Shown here: in pieces, positions 10,272-16,833 of the stretch | Layout of the letters: the number at the start of each line of letters is the position of its first letter | Position numbering within the stretch: position 1 is the first letter of the stretch | Assembly: GCA_902621305.1 (NCBI GenBank) | Contig: CACNLM010000001.1 | Coordinates: 137,005-201,004 of the forward strand | Direction: 5' to 3' | Source of the DNA: an uncultured Alphaproteobacteria bacterium | GTDB taxonomy: Bacteria; Pseudomonadota; Alphaproteobacteria; HIMB59; GCA-002718135 | DNA length: 64,000 nt | Program-made: the position numbers and the translations under genes | The notes under the pieces: model-generated | Told to the model about the DNA's origin: nothing | Seen by the model: the letters and a program-made list of their open reading frames with translations, nothing else | Databases searched by the model: none

Positions 10272-11159
10272 GTGCTTAAAAAAATACTTATAATATTTCT
10301 TTTTATCCCTTTTAGTGCCTTTGCAGGTGATGAAGAAATAGCTAAAAAAAGTGTTATTGATAAATTTTCAAATGGCCTTTCATCTGCTATCGAAAATATA
10401 TTAGATGGTGAAGGAGATACACAAGTACAAATCATAGCTGGTGAAGATTACAAACCTGAATTTTCTATCGTGACTGTTAGGCCAATTTCTCACCATCCTG
10501 GTGTAGACTCAGTATTTGTTCAAATACAATTAAATGATACTAAAATTCGAGGTGATAACAGATTAAGCATTAATACAGGTCTTGGATATAGAAAACTTTC
10601 AGATGATAAATCTTCATTTGTTGGAGGTAATGTTTTTATTGATTATGATGAAGAAGGTAATGCAAGAGCAAGTATTGGTTTAGAGCTTCGTTCGTCAGCA
10701 TTTGAATTAATAGGAAATTACTACTCTGGAATTAGTGGTGATAAAACTGTTGGAAGCTTTACTGAAAGAACTTTAGATGGAATCGAATTAAGTGCAATAG
10801 GACAATTACCATATGTTCCATGGGTCAATATTATTGCTACATCATATGAGTGGGATGCAATAAAAAATTCCAAAAACTCAAAAGGCGAGAAGTATAGTTT
10901 AGAAATGACAATTACACCAAATCTTATTGCTGAACTAGGCTATGATGATAATAACATTGATGGAACAAATAATTTTGTAAAAATAATGTTTGTTTATCCA
11001 GCAAGAGAAACTCCAACAGCCTCCACTGATTTTATTAGTGATACAGCATTCCTTAAAGGAAATATGAGTTTAGAATTGTTATCAATTGTTCGAAGAACAA
11101 ATAAACAAATAATTGAGTCTGAAGGTACTGGCGTAATAATAGCAAGGACAGCAGAATAA
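10272..11159 (+). CDS. Inverse-autotransporter-type outer-membrane beta-barrel protein, no passenger
   Basis: GTG start; the signal peptide is about 18 residues, ending FSAFA before GDEE. The remaining ~275 residues follow the intimin/invasin barrel layout: a helical lead-in, LSINTGLGYRKLSDD, FVGGNVFIDYDEEGN, SIGLELRSSAFELIGNYYSG, a DGIELSAIGQLPYVPW segment and final strands ending KIMFVYP. About 50 residues follow the barrel, including VRRTNKQIIES, which resembles the post-barrel linker; then the protein stops. No surface passenger or LysM domain is seen. It is followed 2 bp later by a secreted protein gene. Family assignment is from remembered motif layout; function (adhesin anchor or secretion pore) is inference. 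Confidence 0.75.
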   Translation: MLKKILIIFLFIPFSAFAGDEEIAKKSVIDKFSNGLSSAIENILDGEGDTQVQIIAGEDYKPEFSIVTVRPISHHPGVDSVFVQIQLNDTKIRGDNRLSINTGLGYRKLSDDKSSFVGGNVFIDYDEEGNARASIGLELRSSAFELIGNYYSGISGDKTVGSFTERTLDGIELSAIGQLPYVPWVNIIATSYEWDAIKNSKNSKGEKYSLEMTITPNLIAELGYDDNNIDGTNNFVKIMFVYPARETPTASTDFISDTAFLKGNMSLELLSIVRRTNKQIIESEGTGVIIARTAE

Positions 11160-11161
11160 TT

Positions 11162-12013
11162 ATGATTAAATATTTAAAAATAATTACTTGCTTTTTATTA
11201 ATAGTGTTTTTTTATTCAGGTTCACTGACTGCAGCGGATTACGGCAGAGCTAGTGTTTATAAAGTTACTATGGAAGAATTGCACTTTTGTGAAGATTCTA
11301 AATGTGCAACATATACAAAGGTTTGTGATACATCAAAAACAGTAGATATCGCAGCAGTTACTGCCGGATCAGATGTTGCTTCTTGGTGCCCTCTAACAGG
11401 ATTACCAATGGGCACAACCTTTACTCACTTAAGAGTAAAACTTAATAGAGCTTTTACTTTAGCAGGAGTTGTTTTAGATAAAAATAGCACTACTGATTGT
11501 TATACAGGAGGCATAAATGATGCAACTGCCACTAAGACCGCTAATGGTAGCTCTGTTACAAATGCTTCAGTATCAGGTGATACAATTACAATTCCCTCAG
11601 GGACTCTGGAAGAAACAGTCATTTGGATTTACGATGGTAGGGGTGGTGGATCTTATATTACTGGTGCAGGTGGAAATACTTATTGGTGGAGTTATTATAC
11701 TCATTCGAACAGACCAACTGGATCAACTTCTTGGTGTGTAGGAACTACTGCAGGTACCCATAGTAATGCAGCTGGAGTTTGTGCTGATACTAATACGCAA
11801 TCAGCAACATGGGATGATGCTGCATCAGCTGATACTTTGCAAATTATTTACCCTTTTACCTCGGCTTATACAATTGGAGTTGTATCTCCTAAAGCAACTC
11901 TCTCTTTTGATACAAGTGAAGGTATGGGAGCAGAATGGTTGGGTCCATCAGGTTCAGAAGTATGTGAAATGAGTGTTGGGAAGGTAGGATTTACAGCAAC
12001 ATTATCAGATTAA
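11162..12013 (+). CDS. Secreted cysteine-rich protein of unknown function
   Basis: 283 residues with a clear signal peptide (lysine, hydrophobic core, LTAADYG cut near residue 25). The mature protein has eight cysteines, Gly/Ser/Thr-rich stretches and aromatic-rich segments such as GNTYWWSYYT, typical of a beta-rich extracellular or periplasmic fold with disulfides. I recognise no family. It starts 2 bp after the barrel gene, so the two are probably co-translated. It could be a trans-acting passenger or cargo of that barrel; this is inference from position only. Confidence 0.7.
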   Translation: MIKYLKIITCFLLIVFFYSGSLTAADYGRASVYKVTMEELHFCEDSKCATYTKVCDTSKTVDIAAVTAGSDVASWCPLTGLPMGTTFTHLRVKLNRAFTLAGVVLDKNSTTDCYTGGINDATATKTANGSSVTNASVSGDTITIPSGTLEETVIWIYDGRGGGSYITGAGGNTYWWSYYTHSNRPTGSTSWCVGTTAGTHSNAAGVCADTNTQSATWDDAASADTLQIIYPFTSAYTIGVVSPKATLSFDTSEGMGAEWLGPSGSEVCEMSVGKVGFTATLSD

Positions 12014-12693
12014 TTTTTTATATATTTATTTTACTTTTATCTTTGACTGTTTATGCAAATGATAATCTCCCTAGTTGCAAAATAGAAAATAACAAAGTCA
12101 TATCTCAAAATGTTTGTTCAGGCGCGATTAAAATAGGAGAAGAATTTACATATAAGGGAGAGTTTTATAATGGAAGAATAAATGGCAAGGGTATATTTAT
12201 TTGGCTTAATAAAAACTTATTTAATGATTATGTAGGTGAATTTAAGAATGATAGATTACATGGAAAAGGAAAATTAACTTGGGTTAATGGCGATGAGTAT
12301 ATTGGCAACTTTGTATTAGGCAAAATAGAAGGTTTTGGAAAAAAAAATTTTAAAAATGGTAATTACTACGAGGGCTATTTTGTTGATGGTGTATTTAATG
12401 GAAAAGGAAAATATATTGATATTAAAAATAATATTTATGAAGGAAATTTTAAGAATGGTAACTTTGAAGGCTTCGGAAAAATAATTTATGAAAGTGGAGA
12501 TTATTATAATGGGAATTGGAGAGATGGTAAAAGACATGGTTTTGGCTCTTTGCATTTAAAAAATGATGAAACCACTTATAAAGGAGAATGGAAAAATGGT
12601 TTACCGCATGGCATTGGCACTATTACTTATAAAGATGGAAAAATACAAAAAGGGAAGTTTCTTAAGGGTTTATTGATTGAATTAGTCAATTAA
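11989..12693 (+). CDS. Exported MORN-repeat protein (probable ATT start)
   Basis: Seven to eight MORN repeats (e.g. YVGEFKNDRLHGKGKLTW, YEGNFKNGNFEGFGKI) fill the protein after a short N-terminal segment with two cysteines. The only common start is TTG at 12043, which would leave no export signal. The same frame stays open upstream and reads a good signal peptide (IRLIFYIFILLLSLTVYA). That signal needs a rare start such as ATT at 11989, which has GGGAAGG just upstream and overlaps the previous gene by 25 bp. If TTG 12043 is right the protein is 216 residues. MORN repeats bind lipids or proteins; the role here is unknown. Confidence 0.7.
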   Translation: MYSNIIRLIFYIFILLLSLTVYANDNLPSCKIENNKVISQNVCSGAIKIGEEFTYKGEFYNGRINGKGIFIWLNKNLFNDYVGEFKNDRLHGKGKLTWVNGDEYIGNFVLGKIEGFGKKNFKNGNYYEGYFVDGVFNGKGKYIDIKNNIYEGNFKNGNFEGFGKIIYESGDYYNGNWRDGKRHGFGSLHLKNDETTYKGEWKNGLPHGIGTITYKDGKIQKGKFLKGLLIELVN

Positions 12694-13199: not shown

Positions 13200-13306
13200 T
13201 TAAATTAATTGGAGCTTTATAAGATTTAGGAAATAAAGATAGTGAATTATATTCTTTTTAATTTATTTGCCAAATACTTTAGTATTAAATTTCACCAATA
13301 TATTAT
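13200..13306. other. AT-rich gap upstream of the unassigned RNA
   Basis: About 107 bp of very AT-rich sequence between the GNAT-like start and the promoter at 13307. It presumably holds the promoter of the minus-strand gene. I see no ORF or strong structure in it. Confidence 0.4.
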
Positions 13307-13335
13307 TTGAGAAAATAATTATAATTTTATAAAAT
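13307..13335 (+). promoter_or_regulatory. Sigma-70-like promoter of the unassigned RNA
   Basis: TTGAGA (13307-13312), a 17-bp spacer and TAAAAT (13330-13335) give a good housekeeping promoter. A perfect TATAAT also lies at 13336-13341 but lacks a spaced -35. Predicted transcription start is near G13343. Confidence 0.5.
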
Positions 13336-13373
13336 TATAATTGATCGTGCTCCCAAATAAAGGAGTTAAAAAA

Positions 13374-13394
13374 ATGAGTCCGCCAGCACAATAA
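13374..13394 (+). CDS. Possible six-codon leader ORF
   Basis: ATG at 13374 stands 7-8 nt behind AAAGGAG and encodes MSPPAQ before TAA at 13392. The same frame then stays open for 17 more codons (GWCPQPKPNKKYKQIFF) to a TAA at 13446. The Shine-Dalgarno lies inside a possible hairpin. It could be a leader peptide, or a small gene broken by one stop. Reality as a translated ORF is uncertain. Confidence 0.3.
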   Translation: MSPPAQ

Positions 13395-13485
13395 GGGTGG
13401 TGTCCACAACCAAAGCCAAACAAGAAATATAAGCAGATCTTTTTTTAAAAGGCCTCGCATTAGGTGATGAGCCGAATTTATAAAA

Positions 13486-13509
13486 CCCCCACATGCGGGG
13501 GTTTTTTTT
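13486..13509 (+). terminator. Strong rho-independent terminator
   Basis: CCCCC-ACATGC-GGGGG (13486-13501) with flanking A/T pairs, followed by eight T (13502-13509). It is one of the clearest terminators in the window and lies 68 bp before the MATE start. Confidence 0.85.
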
Positions 13510-13577
13510 ATTCTTAATACTTGAACAAATTATAAAAAACCTCAAAACGACTAACTAATAAAAATTCTATTCTTATA

Positions 13578-14891
13578 ATGTCATCAAAATCATCTATTCA
13601 AAATATTTTTAAATTATCTATCCCTATTTTTTTTGCAAATTTAGTCATTCCTTTTGTGGCTATTGTAGATACGGGTTTAATGGGTAATCTTGATAATGCT
13701 AGTTATTTAGTTGCGACCAGTATAGCGGCAAGTGTCTTTTCAATTCTTTTTGGTAGTTTTGGTTTTTTACGATCAGGTACGGTTGGAATGATCGCACAAG
13801 CAGATGGATCCAATGACTATGAAGAAATTATAAATATTTTTTTACGTAATATTACATTTGTCATTATAATTTCCCTCTTATTAGTTATTCTTCAAACATA
13901 CATATATAATATTTCCTTATCTATTTTTGAGTTATCGAAGGAAACAAAAATATATTTTAAATATTATTTTATCTTTCGTATTTACTCCTCTTTTGGTGAG
14001 CTAACAATTTTTGTAATTACAGGATTGTTTATTGGTCTCCAAAAAACAAAAACATCAAGCCTTATTGTCGGTTTCTATTCTATTGCCAATATAATTTTAA
14101 GTTTAGTCTTTGTTTTATATTTTAATTTAAATGTTTTAGGTGTTGCCTTAGGCACATTCGTCGCTTCAACGATGACAACAATAATCTTTTTATTCTATAC
14201 ATTCTATGATCTAAGCAAGATAACTAAATTAGAATTTAACACAAGAAAAATTTTTAATTTTAGTAAAGTAAAAAATATTTTTAATATTAATCTTAATATA
14301 TTTATCCGATCTCTTCTTCTTGCTTTTGCCTTCTTATATTTTACCTATCTTGGTAATTCTATCAGTGAAGAAACAGTAGCTGCAAATACCATTTTGCTAA
14401 ATTTTATAATGTTATCAGCTTATGTTCTTGATGCCTATGCTTTCTCTACAGAGGGTATTGTAGGGTATTCTATTGGATCAAAAAATAAACAATTATTAAG
14501 AGATGTTATAAAAAATTCCTTTATCTTAAGTACAGTAACTGGCTTAGTAATATGTGTAATCTTTTTCTTTAGTAAAAATTATTTCATTATTACAATGACA
14601 GATTTACCTGACATTCGAGAGATCAGTTTTTCATTCTCCTACTGGGTAATCATTATTCCTTTTGCAGCTTCTTTTTGTTTTCAATTTGATGGTATTTTTG
14701 TTGGTGCATCTCAGACAACAGAACTACGAAATGCCATGATTGTATCTGTCGCAATATATATCGTTGTCTCCTTCTTTTTAATTGCAAGTTATGGGAATAC
14801 TGGCTTATGGTTATCTCTTTGCCTTTTCTTTATTGCAAGAGCACTCACTCTGTTTGTCTATATGCCGAGAATTTATCAGCGTGTAGCATGA
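13578..14891 (+). CDS. MATE family efflux transporter
   Basis: 437 residues with about 12 hydrophobic segments and two internally similar halves, the usual MATE size. The N-terminal IPIFFANLVIPFVAIVDTGLMGNL is the family's helix 1-2 signature. The family exports drugs or metabolites against Na+ or H+. No Shine-Dalgarno is visible before ATG 13578. It lies downstream of the structured RNA and its terminator, so read-through control is possible. Convergent with ccrM (5 bp apart). Substrate cannot be told. Confidence 0.9.
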   Translation: MSSKSSIQNIFKLSIPIFFANLVIPFVAIVDTGLMGNLDNASYLVATSIAASVFSILFGSFGFLRSGTVGMIAQADGSNDYEEIINIFLRNITFVIIISLLLVILQTYIYNISLSIFELSKETKIYFKYYFIFRIYSSFGELTIFVITGLFIGLQKTKTSSLIVGFYSIANIILSLVFVLYFNLNVLGVALGTFVASTMTTIIFLFYTFYDLSKITKLEFNTRKIFNFSKVKNIFNINLNIFIRSLLLAFAFLYFTYLGNSISEETVAANTILLNFIMLSAYVLDAYAFSTEGIVGYSIGSKNKQLLRDVIKNSFILSTVTGLVICVIFFFSKNYFIITMTDLPDIREISFSFSYWVIIIPFAASFCFQFDGIFVGASQTTELRNAMIVSVAIYIVVSFFLIASYGNTGLWLSLCLFFIARALTLFVYMPRIYQRVA

Positions 14892-14896
14892 AAATA

Positions 14897-15967
14897 CTAA
14901 TTCAATTTATCTTTACGGTAATTAGATCGTATTTCATCTAGTAGGATTGATTTAGATTTATCTTTTACATGCCAAAAATCCCATCCATTACAACTTGGTA
15001 GTCCTTGTATTTTTGCTCCCATTTGATGAATAGAGCCTGTTAAATCTTTAATTTTAAGTGTTCCATCAATACTAACCGTAGCTTTAAAGCGTTCTTTTTT
15101 ATCTGTTAATACTGCACCTGGTGGAATAATTCCTTGCTCGACTAATTCACCAAAAGGTACTTTTGGTAATTCTTTTTTGCTCTTTGCAATAGTGACAACT
15201 TCTTCTTTCAATACTTTAGTTTTCTTTAATCGTTCTTTTGAAAGTTTAACGTAGTCTTTATCTTTTTCTATGCCAATAAAATTACGTTGTAATTTTTTTG
15301 CAACAACCGCAGTTGTTCCACTTCCAGAAAATGGATCAAGAATAAGGTCACCTTTGTTTGTTGAGGCTAATAAAATTCGGTAGAGGAGAGCTTCTGGTTT
15401 TTGTGTTGGGTGTGATCGTTGATTGTTATCTTTACGTAATCTTTCTTTCCCTGAACAGATAGGAATATACCAGTCACTTCGCATTTGTTTTCCTTCATTT
15501 AGTTCTTTGAGGTTTTGGTAATTGAATGTGTATTTTGCCTCTCTTGATGTTGTGCACCATAAAAGTGTTTCATGGGCATTTGTGAAACGTGTACCTCGAA
15601 AGTTTGGCATAGGATTTGTTTTATGCCAAATAATATCATTTAAAATCCATAAGCCTTCATCTTGGATTGTATAACCAACTCGTAATATATTATGATAACT
15701 TCCTATGACCCAAAGCGCTCCACCTTTTTTTAAAACACGTTTACATTCACTAAGCCAAGCATTGGTAAATTGATCATATTCTTTATAGGTACTAAATTTA
15801 TCCCAATCTTGTGTCACAGCTTCCACCGTTGTTTGATCAGGTCTATATAACGTATCTTTTAATTGAAGATTATAGGGTGGATCAGCAAAAATAAGATCAA
15901 CTGAATGATCTTTTAGTTTTTTCATTTCCTTAATCGAATCACCTAAGATAATTTGATTTTTCTTCAT
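14897..15967 (-). CDS. ccrM: CcrM-type adenine-N6 DNA methyltransferase (GANTC)
   Basis: Beta-class N6-adenine methyltransferase. Of 356 residues, catalytic DPPY is at 29-32 and the SAM-binding DPFSGSGTT at about 210. A ~80-residue C-terminal extension (GIIPPGAVL, GLPSCNGWDFW) is typical of cell-cycle methyltransferase CcrM of Alphaproteobacteria, which methylates GANTC and works with GcrA. No restriction partner lies nearby, fitting an orphan regulatory enzyme. Three GAATC sites lie within 70 bp upstream of its start. Confidence 0.94.
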   Translation of the reverse strand: MKKNQIILGDSIKEMKKLKDHSVDLIFADPPYNLQLKDTLYRPDQTTVEAVTQDWDKFSTYKEYDQFTNAWLSECKRVLKKGGALWVIGSYHNILRVGYTIQDEGLWILNDIIWHKTNPMPNFRGTRFTNAHETLLWCTTSREAKYTFNYQNLKELNEGKQMRSDWYIPICSGKERLRKDNNQRSHPTQKPEALLYRILLASTNKGDLILDPFSGSGTTAVVAKKLQRNFIGIEKDKDYVKLSKERLKKTKVLKEEVVTIAKSKKELPKVPFGELVEQGIIPPGAVLTDKKERFKATVSIDGTLKIKDLTGSIHQMGAKIQGLPSCNGWDFWHVKDKSKSILLDEIRSNYRKDKLN

Positions 15968-15979
15968 AATTGATAAAAA

Positions 15980-16033
15980 GAATCTTTAAGCAGATATGGA
16001 ATCAGGTCAATTGAGTTATCAACAGGCGGAATC
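15980..16033 (-). promoter_or_regulatory. Cluster of three GANTC sites upstream of ccrM
   Basis: GAATC occurs at 15980-15984, 15999-16003 and 16029-16033; the first and third sit in the repeat GAATCTTTA. In Caulobacter the ccrM promoter/leader also carries GANTC sites and responds to methylation state. The arrangement here suggests the same autoregulation; that is inference from position. Confidence 0.5.
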
Positions 16034-16071
16034 TTTAGGTAGGGATAACCTTAAATTTTGCCTAAAAACAT

Positions 16072-16093
16072 AAAAAAGGGGTCCGAAGACCCC
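16072..16093 (-). terminator. Terminator with cUUCGg loop
   Basis: On the minus strand the sequence reads GGGGTC-TTCG-GACCCC followed by TTTTTT. The closing C-G around TTCG is the extra-stable tetraloop form. It lies 126 bp downstream of rnhB and separates the rnhB run from ccrM. Confidence 0.85.
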
Positions 16094-16118
16094 AGGAATA
16101 ATTCATCAAATGGGAGGA

Positions 16119-16163
16119 ATGATGAAATATATTATTTATATAGTGTTTGTCGCATCTTTTTGA
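16119..16163 (+). CDS. Possible 14-codon hydrophobic mini-ORF
   Basis: Between the terminator and rnhB, GGGAGG at 16112-16117 precedes paired ATGs (16119, 16122). They open MMKYIIYIVFVASF before TGA. The peptide is almost wholly hydrophobic. It could be a small membrane peptide or chance. No promoter was identified and the rest of the 250-bp gap shows nothing clear. Confidence 0.2.
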   Translation: MMKYIIYIVFVASF

Positions 16164-16218
16164 AGCATAATAAAATAATATTTGGTATGCATTATTTGCA
16201 TGGATAAATTTAAGTAAT

Positions 16219-16833
16219 TTATTTTTTTAATAACGATTTAATTGGCTCAAATGATTTTCGGTGAAATTGAGTTACGCCGTGTTTGTGGATTGCATCAATA
16301 TGTTTTTTAGTTCCATAACCTGCATTTTTTTTCCAATCATAAAATGTAAACTTACGATGCAGTATACTCATCAGTCGATCACGGTGAACTTTTGCAATAA
16401 TAGATGCACTTGCGATCGACAAAGATTTTTTATCTCCTCCTATAATAGATTTTTCATTTTGATAATTTAATGAAAAGTTTCCATCAATAATAAGATGTGG
16501 ATTTTCAAAATTAAATTTATTTATTACTCTTTTCATCGATAATTTTGTTGCTTCCAAAATATTAATTGTATCTATTTCTTCTACACTTGCATACCCTAAG
16601 TAATACCGAAGCTTTTTTTCTTTTTGTAATTTTTTAAAAAATAAAAATAATTTTTCTCTTTGTTTTACTGTATGTTTCTTTGAATCAGTTATGGGTATTT
16701 CTGATTCTAAATCATCATAATTAGAAAAATAACATCCACAACTCACCACTGGGCCTGCCAATGGACCTCTACCTACTTCATCTAAACCAATTACAGGTCC
16801 ATTAATTGATTTCTCTATAGAAAAATCAGTCAC
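16219..16833 (-). CDS. rnhB: Ribonuclease HII
   Basis: Cleaves RNA in RNA-DNA hybrids and starts removal of misincorporated ribonucleotides. 204 residues. The GLDEVGRGPLAGPVV motif holds the catalytic Asp-Glu; later motifs are DGN, SIIAKVHRDR and GYGTKKH. Its start overlaps the moaB stop by one base (16833). Confidence 0.96.
   Translation of the reverse strand: MTDFSIEKSINGPVIGLDEVGRGPLAGPVVSCGCYFSNYDDLESEIPITDSKKHTVKQREKLFLFFKKLQKEKKLRYYLGYASVEEIDTINILEATKLSMKRVINKFNFENPHLIIDGNFSLNYQNEKSIIGGDKKSLSIASASIIAKVHRDRLMSILHRKFTFYDWKKNAGYGTKKHIDAIHKHGVTQFHRKSFEPIKSLLKK

Follow-up and report, generated by a model that had tools for sequence, protein, structure and literature searches.

Relation to described leader-peptide and marine RNAs

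The small RNA rnTrpL of Sinorhizobium meliloti is derived from an attenuator and acts in trans, and its leader peptide, peTrpL, is also reported to act in trans (Melior et al. 2020, PMC7298713). In Candidatus Pelagibacter ubique, candidate structured RNAs have been described, several of which have no known function (Meyer et al. 2009, PMC2704228). The RNA reported here is encoded on the plus strand at 13342–13510 of a 64,000-nucleotide stretch of DNA from an uncultured alphaproteobacterium (the window), and is probably the product of a free-standing small RNA gene, acting most likely in trans. Both rnTrpL and this RNA are short alphaproteobacterial RNAs with a Shine–Dalgarno sequence, a tiny open reading frame (ORF), stem-loops and an intrinsic terminator, whereas the present RNA has no trp or biosynthetic operon downstream, carries a six-codon Pro-Pro peptide instead of a Trp peptide and is not tied to a regulated operon. 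No amino-acid biosynthesis operon matching a residue of the peptide lies downstream among the neighbours examined, and no sequence similarity between rnTrpL and the RNA was found by Rfam. The Shine–Dalgarno sequence with a short ORF, a trait of leader-peptide small RNAs, is conserved in all 13 copies from the genus, but not uniformly in G507 and G508, the genomes from two other genera of the same family in which the RNA occurs. By analogy, the RNA would work most like leader-peptide small RNAs such as rnTrpL, without being a member of them.

With the Pelagibacter RNAs it shares the character of a structured RNA in a small AT-rich marine alphaproteobacterial genome. The Pelagibacter motifs with which it was compared, by description only, are linked to rpsB, rpsL, ffh, pntA, rhtB/proC or rnhB1, and none of these is described beside a MATE gene with the anatomy found here. 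One of them, which is unnamed, lies between rnhB1 and a DNA methylase gene (Meyer et al. 2009, PMC2704228). A second region of the window, 15968–16218, is located between genes for a DNA methylase (14897–15967, minus strand) and RNase HII (16219–16833, minus strand); its minus strand folds more stably than shuffled sequence (z = −2.5) and has a strong terminator, it has no Rfam match and, by position only, it is a possible counterpart of this motif.

The window was searched against Rfam 15 at gathering and relaxed thresholds, and the other copies at relaxed thresholds, and only sub-threshold matches driven by the terminator were obtained, in agreement with the sequence-only reading, which had recognized no RNA class. 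The best of them was Phe_leader (RF01859), at 30.7 bits against a gathering score of 55 bits; it arose from an A-rich stretch and the terminator, and the RNA has neither Phe codons in its mini-ORF nor pheST downstream. A scan for tRNA and tmRNA returned two distant tRNAs only. A presumed resemblance to a hammerhead, CUGAUGAG...GAAA, was considered and dropped, as stem II and the essential C are missing from GUGAUGAGCCGAA. The RNA thus appears to represent a new small RNA family, ordinary in kind and unusual in combining strong conservation with a scattered occurrence and a six-codon ORF inside the RNA. It would add an undescribed family to the small-genome ocean alphaproteobacteria, a group with few known regulatory RNAs.

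Anatomy and conservation of the RNA gene

Transcription would proceed from the gene's own promoter, TTGAGA–17 nt–TAAAAT (13307–13335, plus strand), start at about 13342 and end at its own intrinsic terminator at about 13510, yielding an RNA of about 165 nt; the annotated gene, of about 165–170 nt, has its 5' end placed from the −10 box and its 3' end from the terminator. The promoter is the best plus-strand site near the RNA. The terminator (13482–13510, plus strand) consists of a 9-bp hairpin, AAAACCCCC-ACATGC-GGGGGTTTT, at 13482–13505 with a T run, and the ATG of the downstream gene, which encodes a MatE family member (Pfam E 8.7e-26), is found at 13578. Promoter, terminator and MATE start are all present as the sequence-only reading had described them. 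The single-sequence statistics of these elements are weak and unremarkable alone: eight promoter-like sites were observed versus 8.7 in shuffled sequence and one terminator-like site versus 0.6, and the single-sequence fold has a z of −1.40, with 17 of 200 shuffles equally good. The gene is judged to be real because of the comparison with relatives and not because of these statistics.

In that comparison, about 70 core nucleotides are invariant across the 13 genus copies. The block AGGGTGGTGTCCACAACCAAAG (13394–13415, plus strand) is invariant in 21 of 22 columns and is largely kept in G507 and G508, the hairpin P2 is invariant in 25 of 26 columns and the segment CATTAGGTGATGAGCCGAATTTAT (13458–13481) in all 24; the latter contains the invariant ATTAGGTGATGAGCCGAA (13459–13476, plus strand) with a small hairpin, P3 (GGT 13463–13465/GCC 13471–13473). 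Mean conservation in the same copies is 75% for the promoter spacer, 84% for the linker and 82–86% for the flanks. A TTGA −35 element recurs at a near-constant distance in the copies examined, with a spacer of 16–18 nt to a −10-like box; in G122 the automatic ranking preferred another promoter site, yet TTGATT-17-TAATTT is present. The terminator stem is kept in the genus copies with a variable loop, and both G507 copies have a different but equivalent terminator hairpin and T run, whereas no obvious terminator was recognized in the G508 copy. This conservation footprint is that expected from a promoter and an RNA gene, and such conservation makes the region far more than a chance assembly of signals.

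The consensus fold comprises P1 (CCGCC 13380–13384/GGUGG 13396–13400, plus strand), P2 (GCAG-A-(C/T)CTTTT...AAAAGG-C-CT-C-GC; 13433–13458, plus strand), P3 and the terminator. Over P1–P3, 92.8% of cells pair, and the covariation score was not matched by any of 500 shuffles. Two pairs of P2 are changed on both sides in the other genera (U-A to G-C and C-G to A-U), in P3 one G507 copy has C-G in place of U-G, and P1 is kept in most copies, with one C·U mismatch in G104 and G105. The covariation support for P1–P3 is considered to be moderate, coming from few pairs and from three divergent sequences. A further hairpin, CTCC (13350–13353)/GGAG (13362–13365), at 13350–13365 on the plus strand, had been proposed to hide the Shine–Dalgarno sequence AAGGAG (13360–13365). 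The Shine–Dalgarno sequence is conserved, with five of its six columns invariant in the 13 copies, and the hairpin is plausible, although the changes in its partner strand are only one-sided and compatible with pairing.

The mini-ORF and possible modes of action

Downstream of AAGGAG and a spacing of 8 nt, the RNA contains the six-codon ORF ATG AGT CCG CCA GCA CAA TAA (MSPPAQ*; 13374–13394, plus strand), and an ATG followed by five codons and TAA in this frame is kept in 13/13 genus copies. The encoded peptides conform to M(S/N)PP(T/A)(Q/L/F)* and occur as MSPPAQ, MSPPTQ, MNPPTF, MNPPTL, MSPPTL and MSPPTF. In G104 and G105 Pro codons are changed synonymously, CCG to CCC and CCA to CCG, and the first of these changes breaks a pair of P1; that a synonymous change occurs where it disrupts P1 favours a coding constraint. 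From this pattern, translation of the mini-ORF within the genus is probable, although the conservation of the ORF and that of P1 cannot be fully separated in these alignments. Outside the genus the frame is less regular: one G507 copy reads TTG ATA CCG CCA GTT GTC TGA, with a TTG start, the other has a 20-codon frame beginning ATG ATT CCA CCA, and the mini-ORF of G508 is without a standard start.

These features bear on a gene centred on the peptide, in which the short product (M-x-P-P-...) would be the main one, perhaps in a dual-function gene, and the remaining RNA its 3' UTR. Such a gene would explain why the Shine–Dalgarno sequence, ATG, frame and stop are kept in 13/13 copies and why the Pro codons change synonymously even when a P1 pair is lost, but the 3' non-coding part is far better conserved than the part coding for the peptide, and the length and start of the peptide differ in G507 and G508; we regard it as quite unlikely.

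For the free-standing small RNA, action in trans would most likely be mediated by AGGGUGGUGUCCACAACC and AUUAGGUGAUGAGCCGAA. These two near-invariant segments are the likely contact surfaces, either for base pairing with an mRNA or for the binding of a protein. A search for complementary target sites of the two conserved blocks with up to three mismatches in 14 genomes returned no plausible target, only the RNA itself and one conserved coding coincidence, short seeds being invisible to a search of this kind. The coincidence, a recurrent site, TTGATTGTGGACACCAAC, was rejected as an mRNA target since it lies on the strand opposite the reading frame of an aldehyde dehydrogenase.

Because the mini-ORF overlaps the 5' arm of P1, with its codons doubling as that arm, ribosome binding and P1 should be mutually exclusive. 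By opening P1, a ribosome on the mini-ORF would either expose the conserved GGGUGGUG arm or cover it, and the state of translation could in this way gate the activity of the RNA. In the more specific form of this proposal, a ribosome on the ORF, or one stalled at Pro-Pro, would open P1 and thereby turn the activity of a trans-acting RNA on or off. We hold this to be unlikely; if it were true, the RNA would let a streamlined marine bacterium sense translation or its proline/EF-P status. The mini-ORF within a hairpin is in any case a directly testable switch.

Distribution and independence from the MATE gene

The whole RNA region was found in 13 of the 102 genus genomes searched, as a single copy in the same neighbourhood in each, and at three places in the two other genera, once in G508 and twice in G507, with 73–87% identity between genera; the lack of conservation in related genomes that would have refuted the sequence-only reading is disposed of by these copies. 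A 20-nt core matches 11 public contigs, all from uncultured marine alphaproteobacterial isolates (for example AG-899-B06 and 'Pelagibacteraceae bacterium AG-337-I02'). In several hundred genomes sampled from the class and the phylum, DNA or covariance-model searches gave short or weak matches only, none of them convincing; the covariance-model search scored 10–24 candidates per genome under strict filters, by which distant members may be missed. The best covariance-model matches outside the family (L108–L110 and L133) were rejected, as they look like coding sequence or chance. Nothing relevant was found in 2.9 million viral contigs with four patterns, three exact and one gapped, a viral match (L053) being rejected as a chance Shine–Dalgarno match, and blastn matches to phage records covered at most 14% of the query. 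The RNA family is, on these searches, seemingly lineage-specific and so far limited to one family of uncultured open-ocean alphaproteobacteria.

Within the genus, none of the six genomes that are at least 90% complete has a strong match. The genomes searched are 55–96% complete, so absence from a single genome is weak evidence, and the firm evidence is provided by 18 intact empty junctions. On gene trees the genomes with and without the RNA are interleaved, a pattern consistent with gain and loss or with recombination. The near-invariant blocks of 22 and 50 nt indicate strong selection on a gene that is nevertheless dispensable in most of the genus, and the RNA offers a tractable case for the role of an accessory RNA in a streamlined genome.

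This distribution also bears on a housekeeping RNA (6S, SRP or a piece of tmRNA) too divergent for Rfam. The Rfam 6S model found no match in the genome under study (G000) or in 12 relatives, among them a one-contig genome of the same order that is nearly complete, which leaves a 6S RNA either undetected somewhere or lost; but the present RNA is not universal among relatives, being without a strong match in the six most complete genus genomes and interleaved with absence on the gene trees, one genome has two copies, and the predicted structure is three small hairpins and not the long bulged rod of 6S RNA. A housekeeping role, which the sequence-only reading had named as a possible undoing of its proposal, is thus extremely unlikely.

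In 10 of the 13 genus copies the RNA is situated directly upstream of the MATE gene and co-directional with it, the ATG lying 66–70 nt past the terminator, and the mini-ORF, hairpins and terminator resemble the anatomy of an attenuator. These features would suit a cis-acting leader, a riboswitch or peptide attenuator in which read-through into the MATE gene would depend on the Shine–Dalgarno hairpin, the leader peptide and the terminator. However, the junction between the 159-aa neighbour gene and the MATE gene is intact in 18 of 18 relatives that lack the RNA, where it measures 119–120 bp compared with 375–393 bp in ten RNA-bearing genomes. In G123, G124 and G125 the next gene encodes instead an unrelated exoprotein of 1771–1808 aa, with a putative filamentous-haemagglutinin-like start (by eye), the 159-aa gene still being upstream, and downstream of each G507 copy the first gene of appreciable size points towards the RNA (cold-shock-like in one and α/β-hydrolase-like in the other, by eye). 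A possible antiterminator pairing, GGGUGG in the 3' arm of P1 with the terminator arm, is predicted at −7.2 to −9.6 kcal/mol (about −7 to −10) versus −12.5 to −14.2 kcal/mol for the terminator hairpin, and the competition is too weak for a convincing antiterminator; a pairing comparable to or stronger than the terminator, as a MATE riboswitch or attenuator would need, was not found, nor was conserved linkage to a regulated gene.

The RNA is not the control region of the adjacent MATE exporter gene. As a family-wide function the MATE leader is largely refuted, and we consider this explanation very unlikely for the RNA. Of the two readings offered earlier, the MATE riboswitch or attenuator is not supported, while the independent small RNA is supported, with its own promoter and intrinsic terminator kept across contexts independently of the neighbours (the terminator being unrecognized in G508). 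Covarying stems together with linkage to MATE genes had been named as signs of a riboswitch; compensatory changes are found in P2, but the linkage is not conserved. The MATE gene does lack a ribosome site of its own, as had been remarked, but this is uninformative about the RNA because it is common to relatives without the RNA.

When the two junction types are aligned, copies of (T)ACTAATAT stand on either side of an extra segment of about 258 bp. This presence/absence module (13302–13561), bounded by the repeats ACYAATAT (13294–13301) and ACTAATAA (13554–13561), points either to an insertion that duplicated a short target or to a deletion between short repeats. The 8-bp direct repeat, as a possible target-site duplication, and the other loci occupied in G507 and G508 would fit the non-coding part of a mobile element, an insertion module without a cellular role. 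This is highly improbable: the RNA occurs once and in one neighbourhood in every RNA-bearing genus genome, no terminal inverted repeats were recognized, the core shows the conservation of a functional gene, no relatives were found in phages or viruses or in multiple copies, and deletion between short repeats accounts for the junction equally well.

The region of the 159-aa gene and the MATE gene is itself variable in the genus, some genomes carrying inserted genes there, among them those for large exoproteins of 1700–1800 aa and a rhodanese-like gene (L054, L057, L062, L063 and L090–L092). Just upstream in the window lie genes for an inverse-autotransporter β-domain protein (10272–11159), a secreted protein without a Pfam match (11162–12013) and a MORN-repeat protein (12043–12693), and gene sets related to 10272–12693 vary between genomes. 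In G507 and G508 (L084 and L082), a conserved 71-aa ORF (MLEKLL...C..C..., with a hydrophobic C-terminus) precedes the small RNA by about 90 bp.
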